A DNA stretch of 64,000 bases from Gammaproteobacteria bacterium (GTDB lineage: Bacteria; Pseudomonadota; Gammaproteobacteria; Pseudomonadales; Azotimanducaceae): the NCBI GenBank assembly GCA_021773565.1, contig JAJFJZ010000020.1:124001-188000 (forward strand), written 5' to 3'. A program made the position numbers and the translations under genes. Below the pieces are notes generated by a model. It did not search any database. It was not told the DNA's origin and saw only the letters and a list, made by a program, of their open reading frames with translations. Of the stretch, positions 1-17,227 are shown in pieces; position 1 is the stretch's first letter, and the number at the start of each line of letters is the position of its first letter.

Positions 1-830
1 TAAATGAACTCATCCAGCAGGCCAAACTCCCGGGTGTGCTCGGCAACTGCCATGCATCAGGTACCGCGATAATCGAGGCGCTGGGAGAGGAGCATATGCA
101 ATCAGGCAAACCGATTGTATATACATCGGCAGACAGCGTGATGCAAATTGCCTGCCACGAGGGCAGCTATGGACTGGAAAATCTGTACACACTGTGCGAC
201 ATAGCACGCAAGCTGGTGGACAAATACAACGTAGGGCGCGTAATTGCCCGGCCCTTTGAAGGAGCGGACGCTACTTCATTTGTGCGCACAGGCAACCGCC
301 GTGACCTGACCGTGCCGCCTCCCGCCCCCACCCTGCTGGATAAGCTGGTAAACAAGGGAGGGGATGTAATTAGCGTCGGCAAAATCTCGGACATATACGC
401 ACATTGTGGAATTACCAAAAAGATCAAGGCCAACGGCAACGCTGCGCTGTTTGATGCAACACTTGAGGCGATAGGCGCAGCCGGAGACCAGTCCATCGTA
501 TTTACCAACTTCGTAGATTTCGACATGTTATACGGGCATCGTCGCGACCCGGAGGGGTATGCAAGCGCACTGGAATACCTGGACGCACGATTACCCGAGA
601 TCATCGACCAGCTACTGCCGGAAGACATATTGATCATCTGTGCAGATCATGGCTGCGACCCCACATGGCCGGGTACCGACCACACACGTGAACACATTCC
701 GGTGCTGGCATTTGGAGCGGGTATACAGCCGGGCTCCCTCGGCCTGCGTAACAGTTTTGCAGATATCGGGCAAAGCCTGGCGGTGCACTTTGAGCTGGAA
801 GCTATGGATTATGGTGAGAGTTTTATCTAG
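1..830 (+). CDS. deoB: Phosphopentomutase DeoB, 5' truncated by window edge
   Basis: Interconverts (deoxy)ribose-1-phosphate and (deoxy)ribose-5-phosphate, feeding deoxyribose to DeoC. The reading frame is open from base 3, so the true start lies left of the window; about 275 C-terminal residues are present. Diagnostic stretches of the alkaline-phosphatase-like phosphopentomutase family are visible: [44 protein letters not shown] and [18 protein letters not shown], the last carrying metal-binding Asp/His residues. The C-terminal end matches the E. coli protein closely by memory. The next gene is convergent, 9 bases away. Family assignment is very secure; only the start is unknown. Confidence 0.96.
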
Positions 831-839
831 TTTGGGGTA

Positions 840-2761: not shown

Positions 2762-2957
2762 TTAACCAGGCTTTTTGGGAAGCAATGCAGCACCCGCCCA
2801 AATTCCTGTGATCAGGATGATAACTATTCACAATGAAAATTACCCCCGCAATCGAAAATCAGCAATAATGATTTTACCCAAGCAATAGACCATAGCTATG
2901 CCAGGAACCGCGCCAGGAAATGATCTAACCCGTGCTGCAGAATACGGGCAACCCAGT

Positions 2958-3767
2958 ATGGCAGAACAGGTAAATATCGCCGCCGCATACCTGCGAAAAT
3001 TTTGTCCGGATACCGTGCACGCAGGGCTTATTCTGGGCAGTGGGCTTGGAGACATACCCTCCTTTCTCACCGTAAAACACTCTATTGCGTATACGGATAT
3101 TCCCCGCTTTCCCAACTCAACCGCGCCCGGTCATTCAGGAAACCTGCATATCACGGAGTTCCAGGGAACCAGCATACTGGTGTTTCAGGGACGATTTCAC
3201 TTATATGAAGGCTGGCATCCCACCCAGATCGCACTCGGTATTTACGTGCTGAAGGCATTAGGGGCAAACGAATTGGTGGTGACCAACGCAGCCGGTGCGC
3301 TGAACCCGAATTACCAGCCGGGTGATTTGATGTTGATCGAGGATCACCTGAATTTTACCGGCCACAGTCCTCTTATTGGACAAAATGAGGATCTGGGTCC
3401 TACTTTTCCAGATATGTCACAAGCCTATGCACCCGACCTCCTCATACGCATTCGTGCTGCAGCGGACGCGTTTGGGCAATCATTACAAAGTGGAATTTAT
3501 GCAGCGGTTACGGGACCCGCTCTGGAAACCTCAGCGGAAAGACGTTTTTTCAGCCTTTCCGGAGCGGACGCGATTGGTATGTCGACTGTCCCGGAGGTGA
3601 TAGCTGCCAATCATTGTGGACTCAAGGTGTTGGGGATTTCTGCCATTACCAACATGGCCGTTGGTGGTCCCGATCAGAAAGTCGACAGTATCGAAGAGGT
3701 ATTTGCCAACGCCGCCGTCGCGGGCCGGGCCATGCTTCCCCTCTTGCAGAAATTCTTTCAGAACTAG
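2958..3767 (+). CDS. punA: Purine nucleoside phosphorylase, PunA/XapA (class I) type
   Basis: Phosphorolyses purine nucleosides to base plus (deoxy)ribose-1-phosphate. Motifs of the trimeric class are clear: LILGSGLGD, GRFHLYEGW, VVTNAAGALNP, DHLNFTGHSPLIG, GPALETSAERRFF, GADAIGMSTVPEVIAA and AITNMAVGG. The ATG at 2958 gives 269 residues, matching usual family length; an in-frame ATG at 2898 would add 20 unconserved residues. Neither start has a convincing Shine-Dalgarno. It is followed 56 bases later by deoD, a structurally different purine phosphorylase, then deoC, so it probably heads a nucleoside-catabolic operon. Confidence 0.92.
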   Translation: MAEQVNIAAAYLRKFCPDTVHAGLILGSGLGDIPSFLTVKHSIAYTDIPRFPNSTAPGHSGNLHITEFQGTSILVFQGRFHLYEGWHPTQIALGIYVLKALGANELVVTNAAGALNPNYQPGDLMLIEDHLNFTGHSPLIGQNEDLGPTFPDMSQAYAPDLLIRIRAAADAFGQSLQSGIYAAVTGPALETSAERRFFSLSGADAIGMSTVPEVIAANHCGLKVLGISAITNMAVGGPDQKVDSIEEVFANAAVAGRAMLPLLQKFFQN

Positions 3768-3823
3768 ATTAAGCCGCCGTCTAATGGCAAAGTGGTCGCC
3801 CGATAAAACAGGTGTGAATATTC

Positions 3824-4528
3824 ATGACAACCAAACACATCAACGCCTCTGCGGGTGCTTTTGCTGAAACTGTACTAATGCCCGGAGACCCGCTACGTGC
3901 CGAATATATTGCTGAAACCTTTCTTGAGCATGCAGAACGGGTGTGTGATGTTCGCAATATCTGGGGCTATACCGGTACTTACAAGGGCAAACCTGTATCC
4001 ATTATGGCGCATGGTATGGGTATTCCATCCATCTCAATTTATGCCAGCGAACTGATTAGCGAATATAAAGTGAAGCGCCTGGTACGCGTTGGAAGCTGTG
4101 GCACGGTACATCCCTCGGTAAATTTGCGTGACATAATTATCGCTATGGGTGCATCAACTGACTCAGGCGTCAACCGGATGCGTTTTGGTGGTTACGATTA
4201 CGCAGCAATTGCAGATTATGAACTGCTAACACGTGCGGTAAGTGCTTCAGAAAAACATTCCGCAAGATACCATGTGGGCAACATATTCTCGGCGGATCTT
4301 TTTTACACTCCGGATCCTGAAATGTTTAACACGATGGAAAAGTACAATATTCTGGGAGTTGAAATGGAAGCCGCCGGACTGTACGCAATCGCTGCAGAAG
4401 CAGGTGTAAAAGCACTCACTATTTGTACTGTGAGTGATGATATCAGAAGCGGGGATGCCTTAAGTTCCCAGGAACGCCAAACCAGCTTTGGACAAATGAT
4501 CCAGATAGCGCTCGATACTGTAAGCTAA
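3824..4528 (+). CDS. deoD: Purine nucleoside phosphorylase DeoD type (class II, hexameric)
   Basis: Phosphorolyses adenosine/inosine-type nucleosides and their deoxy forms. The 234-residue length and motifs fit Deo[19 protein letters not shown] (phosphate site), [41 protein letters not shown] (ribose-binding Met-Glu) and CTVSDDI with the catalytic Asp equivalent to E. coli Asp204. It sits between punA and deoC on the same strand, as expected for a deo-type operon. Having both phosphorylase classes in tandem suggests a division of labour between 6-oxo and 6-amino purines (inference from family knowledge). Confidence 0.94.
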
Positions 4529-4531
4529 TCT

Positions 4532-4560
4532 AGGAAAAGAAAAGAAGAGAAGAGAAGAGA
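4532..4560 (+). repeat. Homopurine tract with (AAGAG)3 microsatellite between deoD and deoC
   Basis: A 29-base all-purine run lies between the two genes. Its 3' part (4545-4559) is three exact AAGAG units followed by A. The tract offers several Shine-Dalgarno-like GGA/GAG stretches, but they end about 20 bases before the deoC ATG, so their role in initiation is unclear. Pentanucleotide repeats can change copy number by slippage. Confidence 0.7.
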
Positions 4561-4579
4561 CGAGGTGCTTTAAACCGAT

Positions 4580-5494
4580 ATGGCTCAGAAACGTAAAAGA
4601 CTTCCCAATCTGGACCGTGTTAATCCGGTAGATGAAACAGGCGTCAATGAAAGGGTGGCGCGCTTTTGTACGCGCAGTATAAAAAATGACTCAAAGCATA
4701 CTGCACTCAAACTGGTGCTAAGCATGATTGATCTCACGACACTCGAGGGACAGGATACGCCTGGCAAGGTAAAACAACTCTGCCAGAAGGCAATTCATCT
4801 ACACGACAATTTGCCTGGTTTACCCACTGTCGCTGCGGTATGTGTCTACCCGAATATGGTAGGTATCGCCAAGCAAGCCCTAATGGGGTATGGGATTAAC
4901 GTAGCCTCGGTTGCAACCGCATTTCCAAGCGGCATGTCCTCGCGAGATATCAAGCTGGAAGAAACCAGAAATGCGGTCGCAGACGGCGCTGACGAAATAG
5001 ATATGGTGATATCCCGTGGTGCATTTCTTGCCGGTGAGTATGCTTATGTTTTTGATGAAATCGCTGCTGTGAAGGAAGCCTGTGGCAAGGCACACCTGAA
5101 AGTAATACTTGAAACCGGAGAACTGGTGACCCTGGATCGAGTTAAAAAGGCCAGTGTTCTCGCGATTCAGGCCGGGGCTGATTTCATCAAGACTTCAACC
5201 GGCAAAATACAGCCTGCAGCAACTATGCAGGTAACCCTGATAATGTTGCAAACCATACGCGAACACTACTACGCCACCGGGGAAAAAGTGGGTATGAAAC
5301 CGGCCGGAGGCATATCAACCTCAAAACTGGCGATACATTATCTGGTGATGCTGCGAGAAACCCTGGGAGATGAGTGGATGACACCAGACCTGTTTCGCTT
5401 TGGGGCAAGCAGTCTGGCCAATGACGTACTCATGCAACTACAACGACAGGCTGATGGTTTGTATCAATCACCTGACTACTTTTCAAAAGATTAA
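4580..5494 (+). CDS. deoC: Deoxyribose-phosphate aldolase
   Basis: Cleaves 2-deoxyribose-5-phosphate to glyceraldehyde-3-phosphate and acetaldehyde. The 304-residue class I aldolase contains the TIM-barrel signatures VCVYPNMV, ASVATAFPSG, ADEIDMVI, LKVILETGEL, ADFIKTSTGK (Schiff-base Lys) and VGMKPAGGI (second Lys). About 30 extra N-terminal residues precede the core, as in the larger DERA subgroup. It lies between deoD and an aldehyde dehydrogenase, which can consume the acetaldehyde. The dehydrogenase starts 14 bases after its stop codon. Confidence 0.95.
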   Translation: MAQKRKRLPNLDRVNPVDETGVNERVARFCTRSIKNDSKHTALKLVLSMIDLTTLEGQDTPGKVKQLCQKAIHLHDNLPGLPTVAAVCVYPNMVGIAKQALMGYGINVASVATAFPSGMSSRDIKLEETRNAVADGADEIDMVISRGAFLAGEYAYVFDEIAAVKEACGKAHLKVILETGELVTLDRVKKASVLAIQAGADFIKTSTGKIQPAATMQVTLIMLQTIREHYYATGEKVGMKPAGGISTSKLAIHYLVMLRETLGDEWMTPDLFRFGASSLANDVLMQLQRQADGLYQSPDYFSKD

Positions 5495-5507
5495 CGGGAA
5501 CGCCAAC

Positions 5508-6992
5508 GTGAGCGATGCGCATAACACACTAAAATTTGATACTGGCTGGCAATATGCACCTGCACCCGAGAGCACGGACCATGTGCGCATTGATAAAAAG
5601 TATGGCCTTTTTATCAACGGAAAGTTTACCGCACCCTCGCAGGGTAAATATTTTACTACCAGCAATCCTGCCACACAGGAACGTCTCTCTCGTATAGCCA
5701 TCGCTGGTAAATCAGATGTTAACCGTGCGGTTAAGGCGGCACGCAAGGCCTACGAAAATGTCTGGTCAAAAATGCCTGCCAGGGAACGCGCAAAATATAT
5801 TTTCAGAATCGCACGAGGTTTGCAGGAACGCGCTCGGGAGTTTTCAGTAATTGAAACCATGGATGGCGGCAAACCCATACGTGAATCACGCGATGTCGAT
5901 ATCCCCCTGGCTGCAGCACATTTTTTCTACTACGCAGGGTGGGCGGACAAACTGGAATATGCCTTCCCGGGTGCGGGGGTAAAATCCCTGGGTGTTGCAG
6001 GTCAAATCGTGCCCTGGAACTTCCCACTTCTTATGGCTGCCTGGAAAATAGCACCCGCGCTTGCCTGTGGAAACACAGTGGTTTTGAAACCGGCTGAAAC
6101 AACTTCCCTCACCGCGCTAAAATTGGCTGAGCTGATCCAGGATATCGGCTTGCCACCCGGCGTGGTAAACATTGTGACAGGTGCCGGTGCCACGGGCGCT
6201 GCACTTGTTGATCATCCAGACGTTAACAAGATTGCGTTCACCGGTTCAACCGCTGTGGGCAGGTCGATAATGCATTCGATTGCCGGTACAGAAAAAAAAT
6301 ACACACTAGAACTGGGGGGAAAGGCGGCAAATATAATCTTTGCCGATGCACCTGTTGATCAGGCAGTTGAGGGCGTTGTAAACGCCATATTTTTCAATCA
6401 GGGCCATGTCTGTTGTGCTGGCTCACGATTGCTGGTTCAGGAGTCTGTTGCCGATGAACTCATCCACAAGCTTAAGGAACGCATGCACACACTGATACTC
6501 GGTAATCCACTGGATAAAAATACCGATATTGGTGCGATAAATTCCAGGGCCCAGCTCGACAAAATCAACTCATACCTCAAAATTGGCAAGAATGAAGGCG
6601 GAAATATGTTTCAGGCACCCTGTACCTTGCCGAGTAAAGGCTACTGGTGCCCACCCACAATATTTACCGACATGGCCCAATCCAACCGACTGGTACAGGA
6701 AGAAATATTCGGGCCGGTGTTAGCCATTCAGACCTTTCGCACAGCAGCAGAAGCCGTTACCAAAGCAAACAATACGCCCTATGGTCTGTCTGGCGGTGTG
6801 TGGACAGACAAAGGATCAAAAATTTTCAAGGTTACCTCTGCTCTCAAGGCAGGGGTTGTCTGGGCTAACACTTTCAATAAATTTGATCCAACCTCACCCT
6901 TTGGCGGCTACAAGGAGAGTGGCATCGGTCGCGAAGGCGGTGCACATGGATTATCCGCATACCTTGCTATGGAGGTGAATCATGGCCGCTAA
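5508..6992 (+). CDS. Aldehyde dehydrogenase, catalytic (ALDH16-like first half)
   Basis: NAD(P)-dependent oxidation of an aldehyde, most likely acetaldehyde released by DeoC. Starting at the GTG of 5508 gives 494 residues; an upstream in-frame ATG at 5400 lies inside deoC and was rejected. With the GTG start the general-base Glu falls at residue 268 (LELGGK) and the nucleophile Cys at 302 (NQGHVCCAGSR), exactly the classical ALDH numbering. Also visible: PWNFPLLMAAWKIAPALACGN, KPAETTSL, FTGSTAVGR and QEEIFGPVL. It overlaps the next gene by 11 bases. The pair full-length ALDH plus half ALDH has the size and order of the two domains of ALDH16 proteins. Confidence 0.9.
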   Translation: MSDAHNTLKFDTGWQYAPAPESTDHVRIDKKYGLFINGKFTAPSQGKYFTTSNPATQERLSRIAIAGKSDVNRAVKAARKAYENVWSKMPARERAKYIFRIARGLQERAREFSVIETMDGGKPIRESRDVDIPLAAAHFFYYAGWADKLEYAFPGAGVKSLGVAGQIVPWNFPLLMAAWKIAPALACGNTVVLKPAETTSLTALKLAELIQDIGLPPGVVNIVTGAGATGAALVDHPDVNKIAFTGSTAVGRSIMHSIAGTEKKYTLELGGKAANIIFADAPVDQAVEGVVNAIFFNQGHVCCAGSRLLVQESVADELIHKLKERMHTLILGNPLDKNTDIGAINSRAQLDKINSYLKIGKNEGGNMFQAPCTLPSKGYWCPPTIFTDMAQSNRLVQEEIFGPVLAIQTFRTAAEAVTKANNTPYGLSGGVWTDKGSKIFKVTSALKAGVVWANTFNKFDPTSPFGGYKESGIGREGGAHGLSAYLAMEVNHGR

Positions 6993-7884
6993 ACCAGCGC
7001 ACGGGCAGGCACGCGCTCCCATAAACAAAACCTGCAAGATATTTATCGGAGGCAAATTTCCCCGTACTGAATCCGGTCGTTATTACCTGTTTTCAAATAA
7101 TTCCGAATCAGCGCCTTACACTGCCAATATCTGTCGCTCAAGTCGAAAGGATTTTCGCAATGCCGTAGTCGCGGCACGCGCAGCACAAAATGGTTGGGCC
7201 ACCGCCAGTGCATACCTGCGCGGCCAGATTTTGTACAGAATCGCCGAGATACTCGAAGGGCGGCGCGAACAGTTCGCGAGCGAGCTTAAACTCCAGGGTG
7301 CATCAACCAGACAGGCCAATAGTGAAGTAGACGCCAGCATAGACAGGCTGGTTTACTTCGCTGGCTGGTCAGACAAATACCAGCAAATTTTTAGCACGGT
7401 AAATCCGGTTAGCTCATCACATTTCAATTTTTCCGTACTGGAACCCAGCGGTGTAGTTGCCGTACTATCACCTGAATGTGACCCCATGCAATTTGGATTG
7501 TTAGCTTTGGTATCCAATATCGCACCGGTAATTGTTGGCGGAAATACCTGTGTGTTATTGGCGGAAGAAACACATCCGCTCACGGCCATCAGCCTGGCTG
7601 AAGTGCTGCAAGCCTCGGACGTGCCCGGTGGCGTGGTAAATATACTAACGGGCAGTAAGTCCGAACTTGTGGATTTCTTTGCCTCACACAAGGATGTGAA
7701 TTGCATCGTCCACAGCGAGGCAAACAATGCTAATTCCACGCGCATTCAGCAGCTGGCATCAGAAAACCTTAAGCGCGTAGTCCAACGGCCCGTGGCCCAA
7801 TGGCACGGGGAAACAATGCAGAACCCTTATCTTATTAAGGATACCCAGGAAGTTAAGACGACATGGCACCCAATCGGGAGTTAG
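6982..7884 (+). CDS. Half-length ALDH-like protein lacking catalytic residues (ALDH16 second-domain-like)
   Basis: This 300-residue protein aligns by eye to the N-terminal, cofactor-binding part of ALDHs (IFIGGKFPRTESGRYY, AVVAARAAQNGWA, GQILYRIAEILEGRREQF, FAGWSDKYQQIF, EPSGVVAVLSPE, LAEVLQASDVPGGVVNILTG) but ends before the ELGGK and catalytic Cys segments, so it cannot be an active dehydrogenase. The ATG has a strong GGAGG seven bases upstream inside the previous gene, so it is a genuine start and not debris of a frameshift. Family knowledge: ALDH16 enzymes carry a second, non-catalytic ALDH domain of about 300 residues; this looks like that domain encoded separately. A structural or regulatory role toward the preceding enzyme is inferred. 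Confidence 0.82.
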   Translation: MAAKPAHGQARAPINKTCKIFIGGKFPRTESGRYYLFSNNSESAPYTANICRSSRKDFRNAVVAARAAQNGWATASAYLRGQILYRIAEILEGRREQFASELKLQGASTRQANSEVDASIDRLVYFAGWSDKYQQIFSTVNPVSSSHFNFSVLEPSGVVAVLSPECDPMQFGLLALVSNIAPVIVGGNTCVLLAEETHPLTAISLAEVLQASDVPGGVVNILTGSKSELVDFFASHKDVNCIVHSEANNANSTRIQQLASENLKRVVQRPVAQWHGETMQNPYLIKDTQEVKTTWHPIGS

Positions 7885-7956
7885 AGATTCAGTCACATTG
7901 GGCGTTTTTCTGCTAATCTTGGCTTCATAATTTATACGCGAATAAAAAAAGACTAT

Positions 7957-8304
7957 ATGGGCAAATTAACAACACATATTCTGGACACTTCCAGAGGCGA
8001 ACCCGCTAATGACGTGGAAATAGAACTATATTGCATAAATGAATCACGAAGTTTAATTGCAAGCACCCGCACCAACGACGATGGCAGAACCCCTACCCCA
8101 CTCCTTGAGGGGGAAACATTCAAACCAGGCATATGGGAGCTCATATTCAAAGTTGGTGATTACTACCGGCGTAACGGAGCTGTAAACATAAAGCCGGCCT
8201 TTCTGGAGGATGTGGTAATCAGGTTTACTCTCACCGATATTTCCCACTTTCACGTACCCTTGCTGGTTTCCCCTTTTGGGTACAGTACCTATCGCGGCAG
8301 TTGA
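7957..8304 (+). CDS. uraH: 5-hydroxyisourate hydrolase (transthyretin-like)
   Basis: Second step of urate breakdown: hydrolyses 5-hydroxyisourate to OHCU. The 115-residue protein has the diagnostic features: LTTHILDTSRGEPA with the active-site His at the N-terminus, RTNDDGR with the active-site Arg region, and the C-terminal HFHVPLLVSPFGYSTYRGS ending in the YRGS signature that separates the enzyme from transthyretin. It is the first gene of the urate cluster, 72 bases after the ALDH-like gene and 6 bases before xdhA. Confidence 0.95.
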   Translation: MGKLTTHILDTSRGEPANDVEIELYCINESRSLIASTRTNDDGRTPTPLLEGETFKPGIWELIFKVGDYYRRNGAVNIKPAFLEDVVIRFTLTDISHFHVPLLVSPFGYSTYRGS

Positions 8305-8310
8305 TCGAAA

Positions 8311-9837
8311 ATGCAAGGGGATCAAACATCACATAACTCCATTCGGTTCGTGCTGGACGGTGCAGTGCACGAGGCAAGCAATGTAGAACCAACCACCACC
8401 CTTCTGGAATATCTCAGGGAAGATTTACGCCGTACAGGTACCAAGGAAGGATGTGCAGAAGGAGATTGTGGCGCGTGCACAGTAGTAGTGGGCGAACTGG
8501 AACCCAACGCTAACAAGGTCTCCCTGTTTACTGCCAATGCCTGCTTACAATGTCTTCCAACCCTGGATGGTAAACAATTGTTTACCGTGGAGAGTCTGGG
8601 AGAATATCCTGATTCTTTACATCCTGTACAACAATCCATGGTGGACAAGCACGCATCCCAGTGCGGATTTTGTACTCCCGGATTTGTGATGTCGCTTTTT
8701 TGGCTCTACAAAAGCCAAACCCGGACCAATTACAACGAGTTGCTTCGGGTGCTCTCCGGAAATATATGCAGGTGTACCGGCTATCGCCCAATTCTGGATG
8801 CAGGGCTAGCCATGCATGCTTACGAATCCGAACGAGAAGACTGGCTGAATGTACCCGGCAATGACACACCACAGGATCAACATACGCTGCAACTATTGTC
8901 CTCGCTTGACACGGGCACATCCCTGGCACTTCGCAAATCTCCAACGGATGGGATTAACTACCTTGCCCCTGTTGATCTTTCTGAACTGGCGGGTCAATAC
9001 CAAAAACACCCGGATGCAACCTTGCTCGCCGGTGGAACGGATATAGGAATCTGGATAACCAAGACTTTTAGAAAATTCCCCATGCTCATTCACACGGGCA
9101 GGGTTGCTGTACTCAAACAAATTAGCATCACCAGTAAAAGTATCGAAATTGGCAGTGCGGTAACGCTCACACAGCTTATCCCGACCCTACTCCAGGAGTT
9201 TCCCGAACTGGATGACTTTCTCAATCGTTTTGCATCCCTTCCCATTCGTAATCTTGCAACACTGGGCGGCAATATTTGTAACGCCTCACCCATTGGAGAT
9301 TCCATGCCGGTGCTGCTCAGTCTTGGAACCGAGCTTAAATTAAGAAAGGGCAATACAACACGCACAATGGCCCTGAATGAGTTTTACCTGGACTACCAAA
9401 AAACAGCCTTGCAGAGCGGCGAATTTCTGGAATCGATCAGTATCCCACGCAGGGCAAAAGGTTCGAAACTTGGTAGCTACAAAATATCCAAACGCTTCGA
9501 TCAGGACATCTCTGCCGTATGTGCATCATTTTACTTGCAAAACCATGACACTGGTGAGCGCAAAATACGCATCGCGTATGGTGGTGTAGCGGCTATTCCG
9601 AAGCGTGCCTATGCAACCGAAGAATTTATCAACCGGAATCCCATCAACCCCCTGAATATCGCTAAGGCACTAGAGATACTGGCCACCGAATTTACGCCCC
9701 TTTCGGATATGAGAGCCAGTGCAGGATACAGGTCCCAGGTAAGTGAAAATCTGTTAAGCCGGTTTTTGCAAAGGATTTGGCAGGGGGAAACAGATACCCG
9801 GCTTATTTCCGTGAGGGATTATCAACATGGCACTTGA
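8311..9837 (+). CDS. xdhA: Xanthine dehydrogenase small subunit (2Fe-2S and FAD)
   Basis: Electron-transfer subunit of xanthine dehydrogenase, which oxidises hypoxanthine and xanthine to urate. In order: an N-terminal plant-type [2Fe-2S] domain (GCAEGDCGACTVVV), an all-helical second [2Fe-2S] domain (QCGFCTPGFVMSLF and GNICRCTGYRPIL), a linker, and the FAD-binding domain (LLAGGTDIGIW, RNLATLGGNICNASPIGDS). At 508 residues it is the expected size of bacterial XdhA. Its end overlaps xdhB by 11 bases. Confidence 0.96.
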   Translation: MQGDQTSHNSIRFVLDGAVHEASNVEPTTTLLEYLREDLRRTGTKEGCAEGDCGACTVVVGELEPNANKVSLFTANACLQCLPTLDGKQLFTVESLGEYPDSLHPVQQSMVDKHASQCGFCTPGFVMSLFWLYKSQTRTNYNELLRVLSGNICRCTGYRPILDAGLAMHAYESEREDWLNVPGNDTPQDQHTLQLLSSLDTGTSLALRKSPTDGINYLAPVDLSELAGQYQKHPDATLLAGGTDIGIWITKTFRKFPMLIHTGRVAVLKQISITSKSIEIGSAVTLTQLIPTLLQEFPELDDFLNRFASLPIRNLATLGGNICNASPIGDSMPVLLSLGTELKLRKGNTTRTMALNEFYLDYQKTALQSGEFLESISIPRRAKGSKLGSYKISKRFDQDISAVCASFYLQNHDTGERKIRIAYGGVAAIPKRAYATEEFINRNPINPLNIAKALEILATEFTPLSDMRASAGYRSQVSENLLSRFLQRIWQGETDTRLISVRDYQHGT

Positions 9838-12115
9838 TACACCCAAGCATAGTATTGGGCAGGCCATAGTTCATGATAGTGCTACCCTGCATGTAAGCGG
9901 TAGTGCACAGTTTACCGACGATGTTAGCGAGCCGCGCGACCTTCTGTATGCAGCAATTGGTATGTCGGAACACGCACACGCACAGATAATGGAACTGGAT
10001 TTAGGCAGTGTACGATCAGCCCCGGGGGTTGTTGCTGTGATTACAGCAGAGGATATTCCAGGGGAAAATAATTTTGGCGCAGTTGTGGCTGATGATCCCC
10101 TTTTGGCTTACGACAAGGTACAGCACCTGGGCCAGGCTGTTTTTGCGGTGGCTGCTACATCGGTAAATGCCGCCCGTGAAGCAGTGCTGAAAGCACGTAT
10201 CACTTACCAGCCGCTACCTGTGATTCTGGATGCACGCGCAGCGGTAGCAGCGAACTCAAAAGTGCTGCCGAGCGAAACAATTAGCTCCGGGGATAGTGCA
10301 AGCGCAATCGCCAATGCCGCTCATCAACTGAAAGGGGCGGTCTATCTGGGTGGACAGGACCAGTTTTACATGGAGGGCCAAATCTCAATGGCAATTCCGG
10401 AAGAAGGCGGTGCCATGCAAGTCCTGTGTTCAACCCAGCACCCCACAGAAGTACAGCATATTGTTGCACACGCACTTAATCTGGCTTCAAAGGATGTCAC
10501 AATTATCTGCAGGCGTATGGGAGGCGGATTTGGCGGCAAGGAAAGCCAGCCAGCACAGTTTGCCAGTCTCGCCGCTATACTCGCCAAAAAATCAGGCCGT
10601 CCGGTGAAATTACGTCTCGATAGGGATACCGATATGTGTGTTACCGGAAAACGGCATGACTTTGATGTTCGCTACCATGTGGGCTTCGATGATCGAGGTC
10701 GTATTGAGGGGGTTGATTTTGACCTTGCGTCCCGTTGTGGAATGTCTGCCGACCTGTCCGGTGCCATTAATGATCGTGCCATGTTTCATTGCGACAATGC
10801 CTACTACCTGCCTAACGTAAACATCACATCCCATCGAGGCAAAACCAATACGGTTTCCAATACTGCATTTCGCGGTTTTGGCGGACCACAGGGCATGTTT
10901 GCGATCGAATATGTAGTTGAAGAAATAGCTGCCCACCTTAAACTCGACCCATTGTTGGTAAGACGCAGAAATTTCTATGGCAAAACAAGCCGCAACGTCA
11001 CCCCGTATAAACAGAAAGTCGAAGACAATGTCATCAAACAGTTGGTCAACGAACTGGAAGTTACTGCAGATTACAAACAACGCAAAAAAGACATTGCAAA
11101 ATTTAATCGAGGCTCAACTTCACTCAAGCGCGGTATTGCACTTACCCCTGTTAAATTTGGTATCTCGTTTACTACCCAGCATCTTAATCAGGCAGGTGCG
11201 TTAATTCATGTTTATCAGGATGGTAGCGTTCATCTGAATCACGGTGGCACGGAAATGGGACAGGGATTGTTCACCAAGGTTGCGCAGGTGGTAGCTGAAG
11301 AATTCCAGATTGATCCAAAACACATAAAAATTATGGCAACCAACACCGCCAAAGTGCCAAATACTTCTGCTACAGCGGCATCCAGTGGTTCAGACCTGAA
11401 TGGTAAGGCTGCTCAACAGGCTGCCCGAACCATAAAGTCGCGCCTTGTAACCTTTGCTACGGAACACTTTCGAGTTAGTGCAAATCAGATAAAATTTAGC
11501 AATAACCAGGTACACGTCGGAACGAATACCCTTGAATTTAGCGCACTGGTCCATCTGGCCTATTTGTCCCGCATATCCCTTTCCAGTACCGGTTTTTACA
11601 AAACTCCGAAAATCCATTTCGACAAAAAAACTTTCACCGGACGGCCATTTTACTACTATGCCTATGGTGCTGCGGTATCAGAAGTTGTTATTGATGTGCT
11701 GACAGGCGAGCAACGAACCCTGCGTGTAGACATACTGCACGACTGTGGAAGCTCCCTTAACCCTGCGATGGATATGGGTCAGATAGAAGGGGGTTTTATT
11801 CAGGGTGCGGGTTGGTTAACCACTGAGGAATTGTATTACGATGCTGCGGGTGCCTTGCAAACTCATGCGCCCTCTACCTACAAGGTTCCACTGTGTTCAG
11901 ACATTCCCCCCGATTTTCGGGTAAATATTCTTAAACACAGCCCTAACAGGGAACAAACTATTTACCGCTCAAAAGCCGTTGGTGAACCGCCGTTAATGCT
12001 GGCCTTGTCCGTATTCTTTGCCATCAGGAATGCAGTAGCGGCAAATGGCGGGCGTAATCTACAGGCGCCAGCCACGCCGGAAGCGATACTTGCAGCACTC
12101 AACAAGGCTTGCTGA
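9827..12115 (+). CDS. xdhB: Xanthine dehydrogenase molybdopterin-binding large subunit
   Basis: Catalytic Mo subunit converting hypoxanthine/xanthine to urate. The 762-residue protein shows the family landmarks: QDQFYMEGQISMAIPE, RRMGGGFGGKE, NTAFRGFGGPQGMF, HGGTEMGQGLFTKVAQVVAEEF, NTSATAASSGSDLNG and the C-terminal VGEPPLMLALSVFFAI containing the catalytic Glu of xanthine dehydrogenases. It lies between the small subunit and the XdhC chaperone; the XdhC ATG comes one base after its TGA. Confidence 0.96.
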   Translation: MALDTPKHSIGQAIVHDSATLHVSGSAQFTDDVSEPRDLLYAAIGMSEHAHAQIMELDLGSVRSAPGVVAVITAEDIPGENNFGAVVADDPLLAYDKVQHLGQAVFAVAATSVNAAREAVLKARITYQPLPVILDARAAVAANSKVLPSETISSGDSASAIANAAHQLKGAVYLGGQDQFYMEGQISMAIPEEGGAMQVLCSTQHPTEVQHIVAHALNLASKDVTIICRRMGGGFGGKESQPAQFASLAAILAKKSGRPVKLRLDRDTDMCVTGKRHDFDVRYHVGFDDRGRIEGVDFDLASRCGMSADLSGAINDRAMFHCDNAYYLPNVNITSHRGKTNTVSNTAFRGFGGPQGMFAIEYVVEEIAAHLKLDPLLVRRRNFYGKTSRNVTPYKQKVEDNVIKQLVNELEVTADYKQRKKDIAKFNRGSTSLKRGIALTPVKFGISFTTQHLNQAGALIHVYQDGSVHLNHGGTEMGQGLFTKVAQVVAEEFQIDPKHIKIMATNTAKVPNTSATAASSGSDLNGKAAQQAARTIKSRLVTFATEHFRVSANQIKFSNNQVHVGTNTLEFSALVHLAYLSRISLSSTGFYKTPKIHFDKKTFTGRPFYYYAYGAAVSEVVIDVLTGEQRTLRVDILHDCGSSLNPAMDMGQIEGGFIQGAGWLTTEELYYDAAGALQTHAPSTYKVPLCSDIPPDFRVNILKHSPNREQTIYRSKAVGEPPLMLALSVFFAIRNAVAANGGRNLQAPATPEAILAALNKAC

Positions 12116-12116
12116 T

Positions 12117-13004
12117 ATGACGGGAATGCAAACCAGCACAACAGAACTGGCAACCATCTTTGCAGACATGCGACAGGCGGGATTGACCCATGCCGCTTGT
12201 ATCAGCATAACGGATACCAGCGGTTCATCTCCTCGGGAACGCGGCTGCCAAATGCTCATCACCGCGGATAAATTGTATGGCTCCATCGGTGGTGGAAAAC
12301 TGGAGTTCAAAATAATGCAGATTGCCAGGAATGCGTTGGCACAATATCCCTGCATAGAAACTTCTGAACAAATCAGGGTGCCTTTGGGACCGAGTCTGGG
12401 TCAATGTTGTGGAGGCGTAGTGAATCTGCTTATGGAGATATTGCCCCTCTCACGTCTCGAAATGATGCCTGGTGAGCTTCAGAACAACATCTATCCATCA
12501 AACTTTCAGGTTGCCATTTTCGGAGCCGGCCATGTCGGCCAGGCACTGGTCAGCGTGCTGGCTGCCCTGCCGTGTTCAGTAATCTGGATTGATAGTAGAG
12601 AAGAGATATTTCCAGACCAATTATCCGCAAACGTAGAAATACGTTGTGTAGAGGATCCCGAATTTGAGGTGCAAACGCTGGCGCCACACAGCTATTGTGT
12701 TGTGACGACGCATAGCCATCAATTGGACGAAAAAATAGTTTCCGCATTATTAAAGCGCAATGATGTTAGCTGTTGCGGATTGATAGGATCAAAATCCAAA
12801 GCCTTACGCTTTAAAAAACGCCTGACTGCACGTGGATTAACAACAGAGCAACTCAGCCAACTGGTTTGTCCTATGGGCGACCCGGCAATTAAGGGTAAAC
12901 ATCCGGGCGAAATTGCCCTTTCCATGGCAAGTCAATTACTGCAGATGCATCAAAATGACAAACTCACAAGTGCTACTGCGGCGCTAAGGGTTTATAAGGG
13001 CTGA
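12117..13004 (+). CDS. xdhC: XdhC, molybdenum-cofactor insertion/sulfuration chaperone for XDH
   Basis: Binds molybdenum cofactor, supports its sulfuration and delivers it to XdhB. The start at ATG 12117 (one base after xdhB) gives 295 residues beginning MTGMQTSTTEL. N-terminal XdhC/CoxI domain: SITDTSGSSPRERGCQM, GSIGGGKLEF and LGPSLGQCCGG with the conserved Cys pair; C-terminal Rossmann domain: VAIFGAGHVGQAL, VVTTHSHQLDEKIV, CCGLIGSKSKALRF and HPGEIALSMAS. Typical companion of xdhAB, confirming an active molybdenum enzyme. Confidence 0.94.
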   Translation: MTGMQTSTTELATIFADMRQAGLTHAACISITDTSGSSPRERGCQMLITADKLYGSIGGGKLEFKIMQIARNALAQYPCIETSEQIRVPLGPSLGQCCGGVVNLLMEILPLSRLEMMPGELQNNIYPSNFQVAIFGAGHVGQALVSVLAALPCSVIWIDSREEIFPDQLSANVEIRCVEDPEFEVQTLAPHSYCVVTTHSHQLDEKIVSALLKRNDVSCCGLIGSKSKALRFKKRLTARGLTTEQLSQLVCPMGDPAIKGKHPGEIALSMASQLLQMHQNDKLTSATAALRVYKG

Positions 13005-13012
13005 TAAGGGTT

Positions 13013-14236
13013 ATGGAAACGTATTTACTCGACTGGCTCAACCTTCTGGTCAGATGGCTTCATCTGATAACCGGCATTGCCTGGATTGGATCTTCTTTCT
13101 ACTTTGTATGGCTGGATAATCACCTGTTACCGCCTAACAAGCCTAACGAAGAATTGCAGGGTGAAGTCTGGTCTGTACATGGTGGGGGTTTTTATCAGGC
13201 GCAAAAGTACCGGGTAGCTCCGCAGGTTATGCCCTCTCCATTACACTGGTTTAAGTGGGAAGCATATAGCACATGGATAAGCGGCACTTTTTTGCTCGCA
13301 CTTGTCTATTGGTACGGTGCAGAAATCTATCTGCTTGATTTGAGCCGGGCAGACCTTAGCAAAGCCGAAGCCATACTCATCGGCGCAGGTGGATTGTTAG
13401 CGGGCTGGATTATGTACGATTTGATGTGCCGTTCCCCACTGGCCCGGAATGACCGCCTGCTCGCAACGGCAGTTACCTTGTTAATAGCAATCGCAGCTTA
13501 CGGATTTTGTCAGGTGTTTAGTGGTCGCGGAGCCTTCATTCATTTTGGCGCTATGATCGGAACTATCATGGTAGCAAACGTATTTTTTGTTATTATTCCC
13601 GGCCAAAAGCTGATGGTCGACTCGGCTATGCGGGGTGAATCACCCGACCCGAACCCCGGCCTGAAAGCAAAGCAACGCTCGGTACATAATACTTATCTCA
13701 CCCTGCCCGTTCTGTTTGTGATGATAAGCAATCACTACGCTTTCACCTACGCAGGAGAATACAACTGGGTAAATCTGTTGGCTATAGTATTACTGGGCGC
13801 CTTGATTCGTGTGTACTTTGTATCGCGACACAAGGCAAATAACAAGCAGTTAGGCACCGGTGCAGCCTCTGTTGTGCCCTTGCTATTGGCTGCCGGTGTT
13901 CTGGCTGGCCTTATCTATGCCGGAATACCCGCTTTACGCACTTCCCCGTTATCTGATTCAGTGAGTATGGATGAGATAGAAGCTATTCTTCAGCAGCATT
14001 GTGTAGCTTGCCACTCAGCACAACCAAGCCAACCGGGTTTTACCGCGCCACCGCTGGGTGTGGTTTTTGATACCCGCGAGGAGATTAAAAAACAGGCACA
14101 GCAAATATATCAGCAATCTGTAGTAAGCAAGGTAATGCCCATTGGAAATCTGACGGGTATGACAGACGGCGAGCGACAGAAAATTGCCAGCTGGATACAA
14201 TCCGGCAATAAGCTGAAAACGGAACGCAGCCAGTGA
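13013..14236 (+). CDS. puuD: Membrane urate oxidase (urate hydroxylase) PuuD with cytochrome c domain
   Basis: Oxidises urate to 5-hydroxyisourate in the cytoplasmic membrane, probably passing electrons to the respiratory chain instead of making peroxide. The 407-residue protein has several membrane segments (WLHLITGIAWIGSSFYFVW near the N-terminus and others up to about residue 305) followed by a periplasmic-type cytochrome c domain with the heme motif CVACH at residues 330-334 and a distal Met region (KVMPIGNLTGMT). It replaces the soluble uricase. Its stop overlaps the GTG of puuE by 4 bases. Confidence 0.94.
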   Translation: METYLLDWLNLLVRWLHLITGIAWIGSSFYFVWLDNHLLPPNKPNEELQGEVWSVHGGGFYQAQKYRVAPQVMPSPLHWFKWEAYSTWISGTFLLALVYWYGAEIYLLDLSRADLSKAEAILIGAGGLLAGWIMYDLMCRSPLARNDRLLATAVTLLIAIAAYGFCQVFSGRGAFIHFGAMIGTIMVANVFFVIIPGQKLMVDSAMRGESPDPNPGLKAKQRSVHNTYLTLPVLFVMISNHYAFTYAGEYNWVNLLAIVLLGALIRVYFVSRHKANNKQLGTGAASVVPLLLAAGVLAGLIYAGIPALRTSPLSDSVSMDEIEAILQQHCVACHSAQPSQPGFTAPPLGVVFDTREEIKKQAQQIYQQSVVSKVMPIGNLTGMTDGERQKIASWIQSGNKLKTERSQ

Positions 14237-15156
14237 GCGATTATCCCAGAGACATGGTGGGTTACGCAGACTCCCCTCCTGCCGCAAACTGGCCGGGTAA
14301 AGCCAGGGTAGCGGTACAGTTTGTAATCAACTATGAGGAAGGCGGAGAAAATTCCATTCTGCATGGGGATGAAGCATCGGAAGCCTTTCTATCCGAAATT
14401 CCGGGTGCCCAGCCCATTGTCGGCAAACGCCACCTGAATATGGAATCGATTTACGAGTTCGGTTCTCGCGTGGGTTTCTGGCGCTTGCATCGAATCTTTA
14501 CGGAACGTGAACTGCCGGTAACCGTATTTGCCATTGCGATGGCCTTGCAGCGCAATCCGGCAGTTGTTGAGGCAATGTTAAAGTCCGATTGGGAAATAGC
14601 CAGTCACGGATACCGCTGGATAGACTATCAGCATGTTTCTGAACAGATAGAAACCAGACACTTGCATACTGCGATCAAAATACACGAGCAAGCGACGGGT
14701 AGCCCACCACAGGGCTGGTACCTTGGCAGGTGTAGCGAAAACAGCCACCGTATCGCCGCACAGCAAGGTAAATTTTCCTACAATGCAGACACCTATGCAG
14801 ATGAGTTACCCTACTGGGACTACAGCTTTGATGAGCCGCAATTAATGGTGCCTTATACCCTTGATGCCAATGATATGCGATTTGCCAATCAGGGTTTTAG
14901 TACGGGTGATGATTTTTACAATTATCTGAAAGACAGCTTCGATGTGTTATATACCGAAGGGGAACATACTCCGCGAATGATGTCTGTTGGCCTGCACTGT
15001 CGACTTATGGGCAGGCCCGGGCGGGCTGCATCCCTGATGCGTTTTTTGGACTATATACAGAGTTTTACTGCGGTGTGGGTAACGCGGCGCATCGATATCG
15101 CAGACCACTGGCGTAAAAGCCATCCTGCAAAAAAAAGTCACAACCCCAGCACCTAG
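14233..15156 (+). CDS. puuE: Allantoinase PuuE (polysaccharide-deacetylase fold)
   Basis: Hydrolyses allantoin to allantoate; metal-dependent NodB-like family, unrelated to the AllB amidohydrolase type. GTG start overlapping the puuD stop (GTGA). The 307-residue sequence shows FVINYEEGGENSILHGD, EYGSR-type context (YEFGSRVGFWRLHR), EIASHGYRWIDYQ with the metal His, GWYLGRCSENS, ADELPYWDY, and SVGLHCRLMGRPGR near the end. Position directly after puuD and before uraD fits the pathway. Confidence 0.93.
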   Translation: MSDYPRDMVGYADSPPAANWPGKARVAVQFVINYEEGGENSILHGDEASEAFLSEIPGAQPIVGKRHLNMESIYEFGSRVGFWRLHRIFTERELPVTVFAIAMALQRNPAVVEAMLKSDWEIASHGYRWIDYQHVSEQIETRHLHTAIKIHEQATGSPPQGWYLGRCSENSHRIAAQQGKFSYNADTYADELPYWDYSFDEPQLMVPYTLDANDMRFANQGFSTGDDFYNYLKDSFDVLYTEGEHTPRMMSVGLHCRLMGRPGRAASLMRFLDYIQSFTAVWVTRRIDIADHWRKSHPAKKSHNPST

Positions 15157-15159
15157 GTC

Positions 15160-15675
15160 ATGAACAAAAAAAATAAATTACCCAGCTCAATGCAGCGCTC
15201 GGAATTTCTCGAACGTTTTTCAGGTGTGTATGAACTGTCGCCCTGGGTAGCTGAAAAGGCGTGGGATGCGGGACTGGGAACAGATGCAGATCTCCCTGAC
15301 GGATTGGCTAGGGCGCTGATGGAGGTGGTTAATGCGCAGGATAAAAACCGCTTGATGAAACTCATTCGCAATCATCCGGACCTGGCGGGAAAAGCGGCCA
15401 TTGCCGGGAAACTGACTGAGGAATCTACCACGGAACAATCTTCTGCGGGAATCGATCAGTGTACAAACGAAGAGTTCGAAAAATTTACCAGTCTGAATGA
15501 CAGGTACAAGCATAAATTTGGCTTCCCATTTATTATGGCGGTGCGTGATAGTAACCGTCATGCAATTCTTGGCGCATTTGAACAACGGCTGCATAACAAC
15601 CGCGAACAGGAATTCAATCGTGCACTTGAGGAAATTCACAAAATAGCGCGTTTTCGCCTGGCAGACCTGCTTTGA
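15160..15675 (+). CDS. uraD: OHCU decarboxylase
   Basis: Third step of urate degradation: decarboxylates OHCU to S-allantoin. The 171-residue protein contains the family signature LIRNHPDLAGKAA (catalytic His), FSGVYELSPWVAEKAW in the N-terminal half, and the C-terminal FIMAVRDSNRHAIL and RLHNNREQEFNRALEEIHKIARFRL. Starts 3 bases after puuE. With uraH and puuD it completes urate to allantoin in the cluster. Confidence 0.94.
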   Translation: MNKKNKLPSSMQRSEFLERFSGVYELSPWVAEKAWDAGLGTDADLPDGLARALMEVVNAQDKNRLMKLIRNHPDLAGKAAIAGKLTEESTTEQSSAGIDQCTNEEFEKFTSLNDRYKHKFGFPFIMAVRDSNRHAILGAFEQRLHNNREQEFNRALEEIHKIARFRLADLL

Positions 15676-15708
15676 CAGGCAATCATTACATAGTGGATAT
15701 TAATACCA

Positions 15709-16692
15709 GTGATAGATGACAATCCTTTCAGACAGTGGATAGACCTGGCGCAACCAAGACTCGGTGCAAAGGTGATAACCGCAAGCGATGATTTTTTTGC
15801 TCCTAAAGAGCGATTAATTGAGCCTGGGGAACCCGTATTCATTCCTGATAAATATGATGATCATGGAAAATGGATGGATGGTTGGGAGTCCCGCCGAAAG
15901 CGAACACCCGGACACGATTATTGTGTTGTACAACTGGGCGTGGCTGGCTATATCCGAGGTGTCAACATCGATACCAGCCACTTCATCGGCAATTACCCGC
16001 CATCAGCATCCCTTGAATCCTGTTTTGCTCCGGATGGCCCGGATGACGCAACGCAATGGCGTGAAATTCTTCCCAAGTCTGACCTGATGGCCGATTCGCA
16101 TCACTACCATGCCATCGAGTGCACAAATTTAACCACACATGTTCGACTGCACATATATCCGGATGGTGGTGTTGCAAGGTTACGCGTATTTGGAGAAGTA
16201 GCGTGCGACTGGTCAGATCACGATTTTGGGAAACGAATTGATTTACTCGCACTAAAATACGGTGGCCGTGCCTTATCCTGTAATGACGAGCACTTTGGCT
16301 CCATGCATAATCTGAATATACCCATACCGGGCATTAATATGGGTGATGGCTGGGAGACCAGGCGTCGACGAGAACCCGGCAATGACTGGGTAATATTAAA
16401 ACTCGGCCATCCTGGCAAAATTGATGAGATATCGGTAAATACTGCGTTCTTTAAAGGTAACTATCCTGACAGGGTGTCTATTGAAGGCACTTATGTGGAC
16501 AATGCAATCGATCCAGCAGAAGCGCTGTGGCGTACCCTGTTACCCGAAAGTAAACTGACTGCCGACTCCGTACATGTATTTACGGATACTATCGCCAAAC
16601 ATCCTGCGATCAGCCATGTACGCATGAACGTTTTTCCTGACGGAGGTATTTCGCGCCTTAAATTATTCGGTTACGCAGAAAAACAGGACTAA
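15709..16692 (+). CDS. alc: Allantoicase
   Basis: Hydrolyses allantoate to ureidoglycolate and urea. The 327 residues form two tandem homologous jelly-roll-like repeats: first unit with DGWESRRKRTPGHDYCVVQLG, IDTSHFIGNYPPSASLE and HVRLHIYPDGGVARLRVFGE; second unit with DGWETRRRREPGNDWVILKLG, NTAFFKGNYPDRVSIEGTY and HVRMNVFPDGGISRLKLFGY. A GTG (15709) is the best start: it precedes DDNPFRQWIDLAQPRLG, the usual N-terminus of the family. Followed by ureidoglycolate lyase 15 bases later, the next pathway step. Confidence 0.94.
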   Translation: MIDDNPFRQWIDLAQPRLGAKVITASDDFFAPKERLIEPGEPVFIPDKYDDHGKWMDGWESRRKRTPGHDYCVVQLGVAGYIRGVNIDTSHFIGNYPPSASLESCFAPDGPDDATQWREILPKSDLMADSHHYHAIECTNLTTHVRLHIYPDGGVARLRVFGEVACDWSDHDFGKRIDLLALKYGGRALSCNDEHFGSMHNLNIPIPGINMGDGWETRRRREPGNDWVILKLGHPGKIDEISVNTAFFKGNYPDRVSIEGTYVDNAIDPAEALWRTLLPESKLTADSVHVFTDTIAKHPAISHVRMNVFPDGGISRLKLFGYAEKQD

Positions 16693-16707
16693 TACACCGG
16701 GAAAAAT

Positions 16708-17208
16708 ATGCAGGAAATTCTACTACAAGCCCTCAACACTACTTCCTTTGCACCCTATGGGGAGATTATCCAAAGTGAAGCTGCAACTTGCTACCCGATA
16801 AACAACGATACTTTTGAGCGATACCATGCGCTTGGACTGGTAGACCTGGAACGTGCTGAGAATGTGCAGGGCGTGATCAGCATTTTCAAATGCCTTAGTG
16901 CCAGCAGCCTGCCTTATTCGATTCACCTGATGGAGAAGCACCCCCTGGGTAGTCAGGCTATTATTCCCTGGTCGGATGTGCCTTTCATTATAGCAGTGGC
17001 AAAAAATGATGAGGCAATGCAAAATCGGGAGATTCTGGCATTTGAGTCCAACGGAAAACAGGGCATAAACATCGGCAAGGGGATCTGGCATATGCCTCTG
17101 ATAGCCCCCACAACAGGCCTTGAATTTATTGTCGTGGACCGTGAAGGTCCGGGCGACAATTGCGTAGAACATAGCCTGGATCCCCCGGCACTCATCTGCC
17201 GCTCATGA
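16708..17208 (+). CDS. allA: Ureidoglycolate lyase
   Basis: Splits ureidoglycolate into glyoxylate and urea. The 166-residue cupin-like protein has FAPYGEIIQ near its N-terminus, LMEKHPLGSQAIIPW, FIIAVAKND, GKQGINIGKGIWHMPLIA (ligand-binding His) and FIVVDREGPGDNCVEH, all characteristic of AllA. It starts 15 bases after alc and precedes guanine deaminase by 19 bases. It ends the route from urate; no urease genes are seen in the window for the urea produced. Confidence 0.93.
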   Translation: MQEILLQALNTTSFAPYGEIIQSEAATCYPINNDTFERYHALGLVDLERAENVQGVISIFKCLSASSLPYSIHLMEKHPLGSQAIIPWSDVPFIIAVAKNDEAMQNREILAFESNGKQGINIGKGIWHMPLIAPTTGLEFIVVDREGPGDNCVEHSLDPPALICRS

Positions 17209-17227
17209 TTTTGAGAGTACCTGATTG

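Follow-up and report, generated by a model that had tools for sequence, protein, structure and literature searches.

A two-gene form of ALDH16, including a partner protein without the catalytic domain, encoded downstream of deoC in a gammaproteobacterial purine cluster

ALDH16 is an oddity of the aldehyde dehydrogenase (ALDH) superfamily: its solved bacterial form joins, in one 767-residue chain, an N-terminal ALDH and a C-terminal domain that has the nicotinamide adenine dinucleotide (NAD)-binding fold without the catalytic domain. The structures 6mvr, 6mvs, 6mvt and 6mvu are, we presume, all of LsALDH16, and this protein reportedly has NAD-dependent aldehyde oxidation activity. Excerpts of its description report that two subunits of LsALDH16, from Loktanella, come together in an assembly resembling a tetramer (PMC8160307). 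The human protein ALDH16A1, which belongs to the same family by its name in the literature, is called a pseudoenzyme without the catalytic triad in excerpts of PMC10650815, which list its substrate as unknown. Here, we describe a different arrangement in a 64,000-nucleotide stretch of a gammaproteobacterial genome (Azotimanducaceae; contig JAJFJZ010000020.1, positions 124,001 to 188,000), hereafter the window. Two overlapping genes encode, separately, a catalytic-type ALDH (alpha) and a protein resembling the ALDH16 C-domain (beta); hence, the single-chain form is not the case in the window. Alpha keeps its catalytic residues, which sets it apart from human ALDH16A1 as the latter is described. 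This two-gene form is a new variant of a known family.

ALDH16 is the best relative of both proteins, alpha matching best at its N-domain and beta at its C-domain. Among all solved structures, alpha best matches 6mvr over residues 11–475 (530.2 bits; next other protein 422.7), with a phmmer E-value against ALDH16 of 3.4e-158. Beta best matches the C-domain of 6mvr (amino acids 496–766, 144.6 bits); against the whole chain it scores 200.7 bits, including a weaker N-domain match of 53.1, and the phmmer E-value against ALDH16 is 3.6e-58. In a tree of N-domains, alpha groups with 79 other ALDH16 rows versus eight other ALDHs (support of 100 in the Shimodaira–Hasegawa-like approximate likelihood ratio test, SH-aLRT). 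A sequence-only reading of the window, made without database searches, had noted a full ALDH with an 11-base overlap to a 300-residue ALDH-like protein lacking catalytic residues, and had proposed that the pair is a split ALDH16. The reading frames, the overlap and the residue loss are as it described, and the family assignment is borne out by sequence for both proteins and by Foldseek for beta. A closer match of beta to another ALDH family was looked for, and the sequence scores give none.

When 27 alphas are aligned with 42 beta-type proteins (halves), with residue positions that we take to follow ALDH2 numbering, Asn169, Lys192, Glu268, Cys302 and Glu399 are invariant in 27 of 27 alphas. 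Alpha shares the fold of ordinary ALDHs such as ALDH2 and betaine aldehyde dehydrogenase (BADH); its predicted structure has a predicted local distance difference test score (pLDDT) of 81.2 and a predicted template modelling score (pTM) of 0.84, with residues 454–477 below 50 pLDDT. Alpha would be expected to be a working NAD-dependent ALDH. No NCBIfam model reaches its cutoff among the best 25 of 44 for alpha (the top model, BADH, scores 467.8 bits against a cutoff of 668.6), and so no substrate can be assigned from the family.

The halves tell a different story, on two counts. Firstly, the active site is gone: all 42 halves are gapped at Cys302 and Glu399, both positions belonging to a missing domain, while Glu is found at position 268 in none of the 42, Lys at 192 in none (Leu or Ile in 40), and Asn at 169 in four. 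The NAD-binding motif GxTxxG has likewise eroded, with the first glycine kept in 19 halves, the threonine in three and the last glycine in one. Secondly, the loss extends beyond residues, which amends the earlier reading: the entire catalytic domain is absent. The AlphaFold2 model of beta (pLDDT 87.9, pTM 0.86; 42 alignment rows) has 6mvs, 6mvr and 6mvu as its top three Foldseek matches, and VIA-align 2 superimposes it on 6mvu 494–766 with Z 36.2 and a root-mean-square deviation of 1.7 over 273 residues. Other ALDHs, which carry a catalytic domain in every chain, align with the model at tied Z scores of 35–37, with about 275 residues placed over spans such as 15–497; beta is therefore an ALDH that lacks an internal part, the catalytic domain, with the NAD-binding fold and the final strand retained. 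Simple loss of a C-terminal part is excluded, since the alignment of beta to full ALDHs skips about 200 inner residues and reaches the chain end (the last 35 residues of beta are placed less firmly by sequence than by structure). The fold does not set ALDH16 apart from other ALDHs as the relative of beta; the sequence scores do, and with 144.6 bits to the ALDH16 C-domain versus 97.2 for the best of the other chains, a truncated ordinary ALDH was rejected. No NCBIfam model reaches its cutoff for beta among the best 25 of 38. From these residue patterns, beta should not catalyze, and probably binds no NAD in the usual manner.

We next consider where such genes lie. A scan with one genome per species gave at least 583 relatives of beta, of which the best 80 loci were kept, a sample that consequently leans to close, split forms (organism names were taken from the genome records, and some are perhaps wrong). 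The 80 comprise 61 loci with a complete ALDH and room upstream, nine cut by contig ends, and ten without alpha in the stretch. A same-strand deoC gene, encoding deoxyribose-phosphate aldolase, lies upstream of the ALDH in 59 of the 61 assessable loci (58 found by script, and one, L091, by hand, an overlong reading frame having hidden it), with a gap of at most 150 bases in 50 of the 58. In 43 longer loci, deoC is upstream in every case (22 fused, 21 split), mostly adjacent and within about 2.5 kb. These were drawn from 20 of 26 fused loci and 20 split loci, most of the latter from long contigs, and consist of 20 fused Pseudomonadota, 15 split Actinomycetota, five split Bacteroidota, and one locus each from Sinorhizobium meliloti pSymB (L111), Nonomuraea (L112) and a genome related to that of the window (G045; L014). 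deoC recurs upstream of split and fused forms alike, a firmer link than the sequence-only reading could have seen.

DeoC splits deoxyribose 5-phosphate into glyceraldehyde 3-phosphate and acetaldehyde (excerpts of PMC6365646). The linkage points to a role for ALDH16 in handling the acetaldehyde from deoxyribose breakdown. The phrase "aldehyde dehydrogenase" occurs zero times in the main text of PMC6365646, which assigns no enzyme to the step under that name, and the excerpts of that paper and of PMC8346489, on DeoC encapsulins, hold no mention of ALDH16. In the open literature, no title or abstract start was found that joins ALDH16 to deoC or deoxyribose, and such a link may be in print elsewhere; the open papers containing both words concern, as far as their listings tell, anaphylaxis omics and mouse colon expression.

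A second line of evidence is the co-occurrence of the two parts. Among 247 Bacteroidota genomes, 48 carry both, one the half only (G806, in a long frame), none the N-type ALDH only, and 198 neither; among 246 Actinomycetota genomes, the corresponding counts are 60, one (G1167), one (G1091, at a contig start) and 184. The association is strong (Fisher p < 1e-49, uncorrected for relatedness and counting two fused genes as both), with only the best six or ten candidates scored per genome, such that some misses may be false. Where a half has no neighboring N-type gene in the fetched stretch, 15 of 17 genomes carry an ALDH16-type N elsewhere, at 799–960 bits, compared with at most 463 for the other ALDHs listed in these genomes. 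(The 17 genomes come from 18 loci, L015 being left out because it starts at a contig end.) The N gene is 1.4–1.9 kb from the half on the same contig in five (G984, G1276, G1211, G1219 and G1261), and on a different contig in at least four (e.g., G710, G709, G1137 and G1369). For halves and N genes that lie apart and still go together in a genome, a protein–protein partnership would be the best explanation.

The above leads us to a proposal that we consider probable: the two genes encode a two-subunit ALDH16 that oxidizes the acetaldehyde made by DeoC, with beta as the catalytically dead mate, in the service of purine deoxynucleoside breakdown. Homology, residue loss, conservation, co-occurrence and the deoC linkage are direct observations, and the pathway is well supported. 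In the mechanism that we propose, alpha would work as the NAD-dependent ALDH, and beta, a pseudo-subunit that keeps the NAD-binding fold and terminal strand but neither the catalytic domain nor the main residues for catalysis and NAD, would stand in for the second protomer on which an ALDH normally depends. A heteromer of alpha2beta2 stoichiometry would then copy the ALDH-like tetramer that one-piece ALDH16 forms from two chains. Active as such, the enzyme would convert acetaldehyde released from deoxyribose 5-phosphate to acetate; the sugar would be handled by purine nucleoside phosphorylase (PNP)/DeoD, DeoB, DeoC and ALDH16, and the bases of the same nucleosides by GuaD, Xdh and the urate–allantoin genes.

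Several observations weigh against this proposal. Two of the 61 assessable loci (L030 and L058, both with split pairs) have no deoC in the fetched upstream stretch and, more generally, deoC linkage shows a shared pathway, not a substrate. Of the 42 halves, 32 retain Glu195, and together with the partly kept first glycine this makes the loss of NAD binding in beta likely rather than demonstrated. Two of the 17 genomes with a lone half have no clear ALDH16 N (G1309 none; G708 438.6 bits at best, ordinary-looking), the partner frame in G1434 has an internal stop, and G806 and G1167 scored half only. The spacing of alpha and beta varies over 140 split loci: from ALDH stop to the conserved start of beta, there are at most 60 bases in 93 loci, 61–200 in 32, 201–700 in 12 and more in three, and in 37 beta could begin at a codon that overlaps the ALDH stop. 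Finally, among 58 kin genomes, counting that of the window, the split pair is restricted to the window and G001.

Among other explanations, the one that fares best is that beta is a docking or channeling subunit that joins DeoC to the ALDH, with acetaldehyde passed on directly, rather than only a replacement protomer. The presence of deoC upstream of split and fused forms alike is compatible with this, as are the 43 columns that are invariant across the 42 half rows, many of them charged or aromatic. However, gene neighborhood does not establish contact with DeoC, and the titles of the solved ALDH16 entries do not name it; we regard this explanation as unlikely, if not far-fetched. Improbable, too, is the possibility that alpha oxidizes an unrelated aldehyde or glyceraldehyde 3-phosphate, the other product of DeoC. 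Both products arise in the same reaction, and none of the best 25 of 44 NCBIfam models fixes the substrate of alpha, but the nearest of these models are the betaine, phenylacetaldehyde and acetaldehyde (ExaC) dehydrogenases, and glyceraldehyde 3-phosphate is already consumed by glycolysis.

A third explanation arises from the genes that follow the pair. The sequence-only reading saw purine-base degradation genes adjoining it, pointed to the link between human ALDH16A1 and gout, and suggested that the pair may couple aldehyde removal (DeoC acetaldehyde) or regulate purine catabolism. The neighborhood is as described, with uraH to guaD downstream and deoC upstream (Table 1), and a gout-associated missense variant of ALDH16A1 is reported in excerpts of PMC10650815. 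Nothing here ties that association to this operon. Among the 80 loci, with flanks of at most 7 kb that were shorter in many, L016 alone has urate genes near the pair (some 6 kb downstream); sister locus L013 has them as well. In the 43 longer loci, the sole match to the window's urate and xdh proteins is a 23% XdhB match in L276. No terminator-like site on the + strand was found by a simple scan between beta and uraH, which is weak evidence for a single transcript; site counts in the region are close to the averages for shuffled sequence, and shuffled versions of the intergenic RNA before uraH fold at least as well as the RNA itself. We thus judge a tie to urate or purine control, by analogy with gout, to be very improbable, and a urate-specific role is unsupported; the part of the earlier suggestion that concerned DeoC acetaldehyde is the one that has gained ground. 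Urate adjacency is a local feature with a plain metabolic reason: with deoB, PNP, deoD, deoC and the guanine-to-ureidoglycolate set together, one cluster could clear both the sugar and the base of purine deoxynucleosides.

Table 1. Positions of the gene pair and of the surrounding cluster in the window.
Feature	Position	Strand	Details
alpha, catalytic ALDH of ALDH16 N-domain type	5508..6992	+	GTG start, 494 aa; Pfam Aldedh 529 bits
beta, ALDH16 C-domain-type pseudo-subunit (putative)	6982..7884	+	ATG start, 300 aa; lacks the catalytic domain
GGAGG, ribosome-binding-like site of beta	6971..6975	+	6 bases 5' of beta ATG; from sequence
alpha/beta reading-frame overlap	6982..6992	+	11 bases
deoB phosphopentomutase, cut by window start	3..830	+	NF003766 414 bits, cutoff 256; covers model 118-392 of 396
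purine nucleoside phosphorylase (PNP)	2898..3767	+	NF006054 319 bits, cutoff 218
deoD-type purine nucleoside phosphorylase	3824..4528	+	TIGR00107 345 bits, cutoff 232.25
deoC, deoxyribose-phosphate aldolase	4580..5494	+	TIGR00126 188.9 bits, cutoff 117.3
uraH hydroxyisourate hydrolase, first gene of urate set	7957..8304	+	TIGR02962 123.1 bits, cutoff 87.45
xdhA, xdhB, xdhC	8311..13004	+	TIGR02963, TIGR02965, TIGR02964, each above its cutoff
urate oxidase with cytochrome c domain, puuE, uraD, allantoicase, ureidoglycolate lyase-like gene, guaD	13013..18538	+	

The weakest explanation, that of a decaying duplicate or chance truncation, can be addressed with the second genome of the genus (G001, locus L013). 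Here, the order deoD-deoC-ALDH-half-uraH-xdhA-xdhB is found again, the 11-base alpha/beta overlap is kept (at 5609–5619), and a GGAG lies seven bases before the beta ATG. The two betas are 68% identical and the frame is intact in L013, the one close relative compared. Non-synonymous divergence (dN) between window and L013 is 0.12 for alpha, 0.25 for beta, 0.29 for uraH and 0.35 for xdhA; dN alone is compared, with no dN/dS ratio, because synonymous divergence (dS) is saturated and gives no usable estimate. Although beta lacks catalytic residues and evolves faster than alpha, decay of a duplicate, or accidental truncation of an ordinary ALDH, can hardly be credited as its origin, given the same unbroken overlap and order in L013, a dN below those of uraH and xdhA, the presence of the half in several phyla and its best match to the C-domain of ALDH16 itself. 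A pseudogene or sequencing artefact is ruled out by the L013 overlap and order, the dN values and the occurrence across phyla. The sequence-only reading had called beta a designed, separate subunit on the strength of its own GGAGG; the site is there, and conservation in L013, presence in several phyla and co-occurrence with alpha speak for a maintained separate protein.

The split form is widespread, and unevenly so. The best 80 loci include members of Bacteroidota, Balneolota, Verrucomicrobiota, Lentisphaerota, Planctomycetota, Actinomycetota, Chloroflexota, Spirochaetota, Fidelibacterota and Pseudomonadota. Samples of single phyla (names inferred from loci with named records) give the following. 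In Pseudomonadota, 31 of 299 genomes pass: 26 with fused genes, the window, and four whose score and partial coverage suggest ordinary ALDHs, such that 26 of 27 real ALDH16s are fused. In Bacteroidota, beta matches in 49 of 247 genomes, 46 in short frames and three in long frames (G889, G806 and G953), the latter probably fused to judge by frame length and E-value. In Actinomycetota, 61 of 246 genomes match, with no fusion among 30 places with a locus (28 split, two without N in the stretch); the other 32 of 62 places have no locus and lie outside the frame check, some of them in long frames. Verrucomicrobiota have matches in 10 of 115 genomes, in frames of 295–416 residues, and Planctomycetota in 13 of 119, five of them fused. 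Closer to the window, four of the 58 kin genomes pass E 1e-20. Besides the window and G001, these are G045, with a fused 795-residue ALDH16 downstream of deoC, and G054, whose match is under the half threshold. A search of the class at E 1e-30 gave 15 of 369 genomes; the window and G150 have real halves, and the other 13 matches are under the half threshold and look like ordinary ALDHs. Overall, 191 loci (after manual removal of duplicates, the window not counted) comprise 140 split, 33 fused and 18 without an ALDH16 N-type gene in the fetched stretch.

Trees were built from the window and 79 of the 191 loci, with eight other ALDHs (N tree) or eight N-domain slices (C tree) as outgroup. In the quick N-domain tree, the 80 ALDH16 rows fall into two groups, 58 split and 22 fused (SH-aLRT 98 and 99), and the root falls between them, several outgroup branches being long. 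The same division appears in the C-domain tree (SH-aLRT 93 and 97) and in a tree of the joined N and C alignment (100 and 100). In both domain trees, one change suffices between the split and fused forms; thus, the pair in the window does not have the appearance of a gene that split recently, and a recent split within its genus is supported by neither the N- nor the C-domain tree. Apart from L013, the rows closest to the window belong to split pairs from Pseudomonadota, Fidelibacterota and Bacteroidota, which, with the near absence of the pair among the 58 kin genomes, suggests either transfer between lineages or many losses.

A deoC link that is conserved across phyla, in split and fused forms, gives bacterial ALDH16 a testable role, and the retention of a pseudoenzyme as a separate subunit across phyla makes the two-gene form a natural experiment in which active and dead parts can be separated. 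Tentatively, and with considerable doubt, one may go further: bacterial ALDH16 could be a dedicated acetaldehyde dehydrogenase of the DeoC pathway, its two-gene form widespread and perhaps the older, with beta as both mate and DeoC dock, and the human pseudoenzyme could be a remnant of a nucleoside-breakdown complex.

The surroundings of the pair offer some further observations. Positions 3–18538 of the window (~18 kb) hold a nearly complete cluster for purine deoxynucleoside breakdown, from phosphorylases through deoB and deoC to the ureidoglycolate lyase-like gene and guaD. As in known deo nucleoside breakdown gene sets (deoC, deoB, deoD), PNP, DeoD, DeoB and DeoC are clustered; the window differs in adding the ALDH16 pair and the urate set. 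The ureidoglycolate lyase-like gene matches Pfam PF04115 but falls under the NCBIfam cutoffs. The urate oxidase (13013–14236) combines PF06181 and a cytochrome c domain in one protein, with no NCBIfam match at E 1e-20. Genes for AMP nucleosidase and methylthioribose-1-phosphate isomerase (mtnA) adjoin the purine cluster on the − strand (840–2761), and PNP in L013 likewise has a neighbor (181–1287) that resembles mtnA on visual inspection. In the proteobacterial metagenome-assembled genome of L016, the split pair is directly followed by a − strand gene (7886–8893) for a PfkB-family sugar kinase, perhaps a nucleoside or deoxyribose kinase. Lastly, one Streptosporangium genome (G703) carries two split ALDH16 pairs, L151 and L153, on different contigs.

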